Below, piece by piece: positions 12,125 through 14,142 of a stretch of 35,708 nt of DNA. The translations under genes were made by a program, and so were the position numbers. Source of the stretch: Spirochaeta cellobiosiphila DSM 17781 (GTDB lineage: Bacteria; Spirochaetota; Spirochaetia; DSM-17781); NCBI RefSeq assembly GCF_000426705.1, contig NZ_AUFW01000021.1, positions 1-35,708 of the forward strand, read 5' to 3'. Positions within the stretch are counted from its first letter, which is position 1. The number at the start of each line of letters is the position of its first letter. The notes below the pieces were generated by a model, which saw only the letters and a program-made list of their open reading frames with translations, was not told the origin of the DNA and searched no databases.

Positions 12125-12436
12125 TTATTGAGGAAATCCTCCTGGCATTCCAGGAATAGTACCCATTTCATTTTGAAGTTTATCTTTTATCTTATTCATA
12201 GCGTCTTTATGAGCTGCTTTAATGATATCTTGAAGCATTATTATTTCTCTATTATCAACACACTCAGGTGATAAGATTATATTGGTCATTTCCATTTTTC
12301 CGTTTAAAGTGACAGATACTAATCCCCCACCAGCAGTTCCTGTTACTTCAATAGTATCCAATTTTGATTGCATTTCCTTCATGGATGATTGAAGATTATT
12401 TAATTGTTTCATTAAGTCTGCAGGATTAAAATTCAT
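12125..12436 (-). CDS. ebfC: YbaB/EbfC nucleoid-associated protein
   Basis: 103 residues: N-terminal helix (MNFNPADLMKQLNNLQSSMKEMQSKL), a short beta sheet (IEVTGTAGGGLVSVTLNGKMEMTNI) and a C-terminal helix (LQDIIKAAHKDAMNKIKDKLQ), ending GMPGGFPQ. This is the standard tweezer-like DNA-binding dimer. The ATG lies inside the end of the dnaX tau reading frame (11-base overlap) with GGGAGG just upstream, so its translation should be coupled to that frame. One base separates it from recR. Confidence 0.93.
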   Translation of the reverse strand: MNFNPADLMKQLNNLQSSMKEMQSKLDTIEVTGTAGGGLVSVTLNGKMEMTNIILSPECVDNREIIMLQDIIKAAHKDAMNKIKDKLQNEMGTIPGMPGGFPQ

Positions 12437-12899
12437 TATTGCCTCCCTTTATTATATGTCCCCTAAATATCTGTTTAATCAAATTAATCTGCTCATCAAT
12501 TTGATTATTTGTTCCTAATTCCTCATCTGTTACTAATTCAGCTTTTACTTTTACAGCACTACCTTTCATGTCACTAGCCGTCTGACTCAAATATGTAGAT
12601 TCTTGCTTTATCATGTTAAGTATAAAAGGAGACGGCATTTTTAAAACTAGATCATTATCAATCCAGTTCCAACTAACTACTTTTTGGAGATTAATGGCTA
12701 AGGTCATTTTCTCTTTTTTTACTTTTAATGTGAGATTCTTCAAAAAGTTTTCAGGAGTCTCTTGTATTTTTGGACCAACATCGACTATTACAAGTTCTGT
12801 TTCAGACGATTCCTTCTTCTCAACCTTTGGTTCGACTGTAATTTGCTCTGATATTTTATCTCTAAAAACATTACTTAAAGATTTCTCAACTATTTTTTT
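12426..12899 (-). CDS. dnaX: dnaX tau-specific C-terminal region (reached by slippage)
   Basis: This frame is one base back from the DnaX frame and is open from the A11 run to a TAA at 12426. It reads KKIVEKSLSNVFRDKISEQI.. and then about 150 residues of basic/acidic linker and a compact tail (VKKEKMTLAINLQKVVSWNWID..LVLKMPSPFILNMIKQ..IKQIFRGHIIKGG). No good start codon with a ribosome site exists near its head; the first possible one is TTG 12743. Its end overlaps ebfC and carries the ebfC ribosome site. It is best read as the tau extension, the part that binds DnaB and Pol III alpha in other bacteria. A full tau read from 14068 would be 547 residues. Functional assignment rests on position and on the DnaX precedent. 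Confidence 0.75.
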   Translation of the reverse strand, partial: KKIVEKSLSNVFRDKISEQITVEPKVEKKESSETELVIVDVGPKIQETPENFLKNLTLKVKKEKMTLAINLQKVVSWNWIDNDLVLKMPSPFILNMIKQESTYLSQTASDMKGSAVKVKAELVTDEELGTNNQIDEQINLIKQIFRGHIIKGGNNEF

Positions 12900-14068
12900 T
12901 TTTGATCTACCTGGGAGACTGGATGAGATTGATTATTATCTTGCAGTTCCTTTATCTTATCGTATAACTCTCTTGATGTAAAAAAGTTGGTCAGTGAACA
13001 GAATTTTGTAAGTGTTAACTCTAATTCGTATCTTTGGTTAAGAGAATATCGTATATCCCTGTATAATTTTAGAAGATCCTCAATAGCTTTTTCTAATTGA
13101 GTTCTATTATATCCTTCGATAACTTTACCATTGAATCTATCAACCGAAAAACCTAAAAGACTTTCTCTATCAATTCCTGATTGTAAGAATAGAATGGATC
13201 GATAGTATTCTGTTAGATCTATTATAAACTGTTCTACGGAAACACCTTTGATTAAAATGTCTTCTACATAATTAAGAACACTCGATACATTACCTTCAAG
13301 AATATACTCACATAGCTGATTCATCTGATCCAAACCAACTAAGCCCAGTTTCTCTCTGATTTTTTCAAGAGTTATATGATCATCAGAAAAAGCAACCACC
13401 TGATCAAATAAGGTATAAGAATCACGCATTGATCCAGTACCTTCTTTTGCTATCCAAAAGAGTGCATCATCTTCATATCTCAAATTCATTTCATTACAAG
13501 CTTCTATAAGACGTTGTTTTACAGTATCTGCATCAATCAGTCTAAAATTAAATTGTTGACATCTACTTCTAATAGTTGCAGGTACTTTATGAATTTCCGT
13601 TGTAGCAAATATAAAAATAATGTACGGTGGTGGTTCTTCAATAGTTTTTAATAAAGCATTAAAGGCACTATTCGACAACATATGGACTTCATCAATGATA
13701 TATATTTTATATCTAGATGAACTTGGCGCAAATAATACTTCATCTTTAATTTCTCTAACATCATTGACTGATGTATTAGAAGCTCCATCAATCTCAATAA
13801 CATCCATACTGGATCCATTGGTTATTTCTTTACAGTTATTACATTTTCCGCAAGGTTCAGTGGTTGGACCAAGTTCACAATTTAAGGATTTGGCAAGTAT
13901 TCTGGCAGAGGAGGTCTTTCCCACTCCTCTAGGACCACTAAAAAGATAAGCATGAGCGATTCTCTCAGTTGTAATTGCATTTTCTAAAGTAGCGACAACA
14001 AATTCCTGACCAGCCATTTGATGGAAGTTTTGTGGTCTTTTTCTACTTGCAGTAATTTCGTATGACAT
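12890..14068 (-). CDS. dnaX: DNA polymerase III subunit gamma/tau (gamma form)
   Basis: 392 residues in the unshifted frame. Clamp-loader AAA+ ATPase: Walker A GPRGVGKTSS (about 45-54), four zinc cysteines in CELGPTTEPCGKCNNC, Walker B region IIDEVHML, sensor 1 IFATTE and arginine-finger region IRSRCQQF, followed by domain III. It ends in KKK just before the TAG, after the clamp-loader core, as gamma proteins do. I chose ATG 14068 (MSYEITASRKRPQNF), which matches the family N-terminus; ATG 14077, three codons up, is possible. No good ribosome site is visible for either. Head of dnaX-ebfC-recR and divergent from pfs. Confidence 0.93.
   Translation of the reverse strand: MSYEITASRKRPQNFHQMAGQEFVVATLENAITTERIAHAYLFSGPRGVGKTSSARILAKSLNCELGPTTEPCGKCNNCKEITNGSSMDVIEIDGASNTSVNDVREIKDEVLFAPSSSRYKIYIIDEVHMLSNSAFNALLKTIEEPPPYIIFIFATTEIHKVPATIRSRCQQFNFRLIDADTVKQRLIEACNEMNLRYEDDALFWIAKEGTGSMRDSYTLFDQVVAFSDDHITLEKIREKLGLVGLDQMNQLCEYILEGNVSSVLNYVEDILIKGVSVEQFIIDLTEYYRSILFLQSGIDRESLLGFSVDRFNGKVIEGYNRTQLEKAIEDLLKLYRDIRYSLNQRYELELTLTKFCSLTNFFTSRELYDKIKELQDNNQSHPVSQVDQKKK
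12893..12903 (-). promoter_or_regulatory. A11 slippage site in dnaX (gamma/tau switch)
   Basis: Eleven consecutive A on the coding strand read CAA-AAA-AAA-AAA and are followed directly by TAG in the DnaX frame. Gain of one A in the transcript, or a -1 ribosomal shift, avoids the TAG and enters the open tau frame. Thermus uses a similar A run for transcriptional slippage in dnaX. I see no strong downstream hairpin, which favours the transcriptional route. Confidence 0.75.
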
Positions 14069-14142
14069 CGCTTGCATTGTATTTCAAATCTTTTCCGCTT
14101 TCAAGCATTGTATAAATCATTATGGCCTTTTATATTTTTTAT

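Follow-up and report, generated by a model that had tools for sequence, protein, structure and literature searches.

Putative transcriptional slippage on a long A run in dnaX of Spirochaeta cellobiosiphila and the varying frame of its relatives in the Spirochaetia

In the genome of Spirochaeta cellobiosiphila DSM 17781 the dnaX frame closes directly after a long run of A, and a second open frame, one base back, continues from that run. Does this gene encode only gamma, or both the gamma and the tau subunit of the clamp loader and, if so, is the change of frame made in the RNA or on the ribosome? The window analysed here is a stretch of 35,708 nucleotides (contig NZ_AUFW01000021.1, positions 1 to 35,708), for which an earlier note had proposed that the unshifted product is gamma and that slippage gives tau. 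The frames, the homology of the tail and a comparison across the class make this the best-supported reading.

The dnaX locus and its reading frames

The genes dnaX, ebfC and a recR-like gene follow one another on the minus strand of the window. The gamma frame (12890..14077, minus strand), whose templated product ends KKK-TAG, matches NCBIfam NF005173 (E=4.5e-196), and homology to both the AAA+ ATPase and gamma domain III (Pfam, NCBIfam) identifies the product as a DnaX clamp-loader protein. Counted from the first ATG (14077) this open reading frame comprises 395 aa; since homologues begin at its residue 3-4, the ATG at 14068 is the more likely start, which would give a gamma of 392 aa and a tau of 547 aa. 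The A11 run (12893..12903, minus strand), with the codons CAA AAA AAA AAA, stands in the context ...GTAGATC-AAAAAAAAAAA-TAG, read GTA GAT CAA AAA AAA AAA TAG, and the gamma stop TAG (12890..12892, minus strand) lies directly 3' of it; the earlier note had given both the coordinates and the reading exactly. It had also counted about 155 open codons in the -1 frame. Indeed, 155 codons are open after the run, followed by TAA at 12426-12428, and the non-tau frames at the run close after 0 and 1 codons. Past the ATA codon the -1 frame holds 154 open codons; 5000 dinucleotide shuffles gave 11 on average and never more than 84, which excludes a chance open frame.

The predicted tau C-terminal tail (12426..12902, minus strand) comprises 158 aa from the run and ends ...INLIKQIFRGHIIKGGNNEF. 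A Pfam search of the tail gave no meaningful match and the NCBIfam match was weak (E = 0.0034); a class-specific tau profile was therefore built on 21 DnaX C-termini from other Spirochaetia. The window tail matches this profile with E = 1.9e-25; none of the other five frames of the segment was among the matches, and shuffled tails reached 0.016 at best. Furthermore, the tail is coding-like by the GC content of its codon positions (0.43/0.25/0.26) and resembles gamma (0.44/0.34/0.21). It terminates in IFRGHIIKGG, a motif found at most tau ends in Spirochaetia. Judged by this homology, the -1 tail is a genuine tau C-terminus and a true homologue of the others.

The neighbouring ebfC gene (YbaB/EbfC family; 12125..12436, minus strand; Pfam PF02575, E=3.2e-27) starts with the ATG at 12434-12436. 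As the earlier note had observed, the -1 frame ends inside this start: the overlap is 11 nt, and the ebfC ribosome site GGGAGG (12441..12446, minus strand) lies within the tau frame. Between 12426 and 12470, the sequence that encodes the conserved end of tau also holds the ribosome site of ebfC and runs into its start, and for this reason the translation of tau may be coupled to that of ebfC; ribosomes making only gamma would halt approximately 450 nt earlier.

Long A runs in the genome and in the class

The run in dnaX is the sole A11/T11 of the 3.95 Mb genome (29 contigs), where about 30 would be expected from the base composition of the window, and runs of A10 or more occur at 11 sites versus about 89 expected on the same basis. 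Long A runs are thus rarer than expected, in keeping with selection against slippage-prone runs as discussed by Baranov et al. (2005; PMC1088944). The ten other A10+ sites of the genome lie mostly outside genes or at gene ends; at L201 the A10 falls in the last codons of a frame, and at L207 it comes soon after a start codon. Apart from dnaX, such a run lies well within a gene at one site alone (position 1270 of L202; G000 C24, about 141669): this A10 is at codon 90 of an open frame of 517 codons, which by eye looks CheA/Hpt-like.

We compared 162 distinct dnaX loci of Spirochaetia belonging to 44 family codes, with no other member of the window genome's own family among them; the relatives that carry names are all Spirochaetales, Treponema and similar. 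Runs of at least nine A, whose lengths could be misjudged by one base in draft or MAG assemblies, are found 34 times in the gamma/tau linker (residues 375-440), once in 180 kb of gamma coding sequence and once in 62 kb of tail, so that their density in the linker is about 195 times that of gamma sequence. Such runs are present in 13 of the 44 family codes; approximately 70% of the sampled families do without, and the run is therefore, on this sampling, not essential in the class. The templated product of the 34 run-bearing genes is gamma in 14, as in the window, and tau in 20. Both off-frames close within 10 codons in 18 of the 20 tau-templated genes, and the median distance to the more remote stop is 4 codons, compared with 36 at linker controls of runless genes (p = 1.6e-11, a value that is optimistic because the sequences are related and not independent).

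The two exceptions, L172 and L173, come from related closed or near-closed genomes (G023, G044) and carry an A10 in the tau frame; one off-frame stays open for 33 codons, which would make one of the slipped products unusually long. At L131 (G020) gamma is templated on A10 and the -1 tail reaches 310 codons, is rich in P, Q, E and T, and has no usual FRGE end motif. In family f13 (L011, L112-L116, L018) slippage would lead to short tau tails of 54-121 codons, which match the class tau profile weakly; most of them still have [IV]F[KRQ]G at their end beside ebfC.

The templated frame varies even between near relatives. All seven members of the G056 family, from three genera, template gamma on A9 or A10 and have tau in the -1 frame. 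In genus g26 a run of A10-A12 stands at the same place in all six members, and the shift needed for tau is -1 in four of them, +1 in one and none in one. A quick LG+G4 tree implies at least 14 changes in the presence of the run and at least 7 in the layout. The same tree groups the window gene, with weak support (SH-aLRT 84), with L032, L033, L038 and L121, in which tau is in frame on A10 or A12. The earlier note had named a conserved run and a conserved tau frame among related species as support; the run does recur in the linker, in the 34 cases and 13 families counted above, and the templated frame varies.

Slippage in the RNA and its alternatives

We consider it likely that this dnaX gene yields two clamp-loader subunits through slippage of RNA polymerase on the A11 run. 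Where the transcript carries 11 A (or 11+3n), translation would end at KKK-stop and give the gamma of about 392 aa, whereas 12 A (or 9, 15 and further numbers of this series) would keep the ribosome in the tau frame and give the tau of about 547 aa with its C-terminal tail; in third-frame transcripts, a stop one codon later would leave a gamma-like product. From the sequence we infer the slippage in RNA, its ratio and the use of both products. Such a mixture of RNAs, differing in their number of A, would account for a run that persists although frame and direction change, and for the immediate closure of both other frames. By the criterion of Antonov et al. (2013; PMC3711429), a shift direction that varies between orthologues is a sign of transcriptional slippage. 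In addition, the genome has tRNA-Lys genes of both species, CUU and UUU, and the presence of two tRNA-Lys species has been connected with the use of slippage in Thermus (Atkins et al., 2016). Against slippage by the polymerase counts that ribosomes could also slide on codons so rich in A.

A ribosomal -1 frameshift on A AAA AAA inside the run, with the RNA a faithful copy, is the alternative that survives best, and we hold it to be unlikely. In its favour, A AAA AAA could serve as a slippery heptamer, the part that A AAA AAG plays in E. coli dnaX, and most gamma-templated relatives do require a -1 shift. However, the 25 nt that precede the run in the window contain no SD-like 4-mer, and the predicted hairpin of the window, a weak A/U-rich one of 9 bp that starts 10 nt after the run (12858..12882, minus strand), is no better than shuffled sequence (z = 0.02) and is probably not a stimulator, in agreement with the earlier remark that no obvious hairpin follows. 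Across the 34 run-bearing genes we found neither a shared hairpin (mean z -0.27, p = 0.10) nor a consistent SD-like element, and a hairpin or SD-like stimulator of a ribosomal shift was rejected. Furthermore, the runs exceed the length that a heptamer requires, and -1 shifting alone explains neither the +1 case in the close set of relatives nor the tau-templated genes with stops in both off-frames. With no shared stimulator and such tight off-frame stops, the preference of the earlier note for RNA polymerase slippage over a stimulated ribosomal shift is the one best supported.

An assembly or sequencing error, with a true run of A12 and a continuous tau frame from which slippage would make gamma, seems similarly improbable. 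Homopolymers are error-prone, and the nearest relatives on the tree have tau in frame on A10 or A12; however, the gamma-templated -1 layout is real in the class, since it is present throughout the G056 family and in four of six members of genus g26. Moreover, even A12 would leave a slippage run with immediate off-frame stops. A run of 12 A, which the earlier note had named as a refutation, would merely make tau the templated product, as in those relatives, and slippage would remain.

Variation at the DNA level, in which the length of the run changes in the population and cells switch between gamma only and tau, is very improbable. Homopolymers this long mutate often and run length does differ among relatives; however, tau organises the replicase, and a heritable tau-off state should therefore be lethal or costly. 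The nearness of both off-frame stops also suits a fixed mixture of products. No more credible is a tail made separately by reinitiation after the TAG or left as a decaying pseudogene remnant, for which a TTG start in the tau frame at 12743 and the short tails of family f13 could be cited, but which is at odds with the lack of a start codon near the run in that frame and with the retention of codon-position bias, profile homology and the FRGxI end motif.

A wider reading, to which we assign an even chance, is that selection in Spirochaetia preserves the long A run of dnaX and leaves the templated frame free to change. Since RNA polymerase slippage would supply every frame, single-base changes in run length could be close to neutral, and gamma-templated and tau-templated genes would therefore interconvert between sister species. 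If true, the dnaX genes of the class would form a natural series for the study of frame-neutral decoding.

Comparison with known systems

Both the mechanism (in Thermus) and the two-ORF layout are already published, so the suggestion of the earlier note that the layout may be undescribed does not stand. In the open-access literature, excluding subscription papers and the supplement of Antonov et al., we found no description of dnaX slippage in spirochaetes, and within that literature the class-wide flipping of the frame seems undescribed. A 2022 paper (PMC9879097) remarks that Borrelia dnaX seems to be without a frameshift element, so both states probably occur in the class. Our analysis adds a class to the bacteria that likely make gamma and tau from one gene. 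Gene callers would label the window dnaX as truncated and miss tau. Close relatives that differ only in run length and templated product make it possible to test whether slippage buffers changes of frame and whether bacteria other than E. coli need gamma.

According to the accessible text of Antonov et al. (2013; PMC3711429), GeneTack found two-ORF poly-A dnaX genes in 17 cases from 12 genera, 12 of the 17 with A7-A10, and transcriptional slippage was proposed for the genes with 10 A. As in that set, the window gene has gamma in the zero frame with its stop at the poly-A run, and tau reached by a -1 shift (+1 nt in RNA), with a tail of conserved coding character. It differs from what that text reports in its A11 and in its Spirochaetia-class genome; moreover, the cluster described there has one shift direction, whereas relatives of the window gene need -1, +1 or no shift.

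In Thermus thermophilus, as far as secondary accounts report, tau is templated on A9 and slippage gives gamma (Larsen et al., 2000, cited via PMC1088944 and PMC5009743). The window gene shares with it, on these accounts, a late A run of at least nine A between the gamma and tau parts, close stops in the non-tau frames, two tRNA-Lys and the putative origin of gamma and tau from one gene. In contrast to the tau zero frame on A9 of Thermus, gamma is templated here, on A11, and the window dnaX therefore belongs to the two-ORF variant. Escherichia coli likewise obtains the same two products from one gene, with A AAA AAG flanked by an SD-like element upstream and a hairpin downstream. Neither stimulator has support here, and the roles of the zero-frame and shifted products are reversed between E. 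coli dnaX and the window dnaX.
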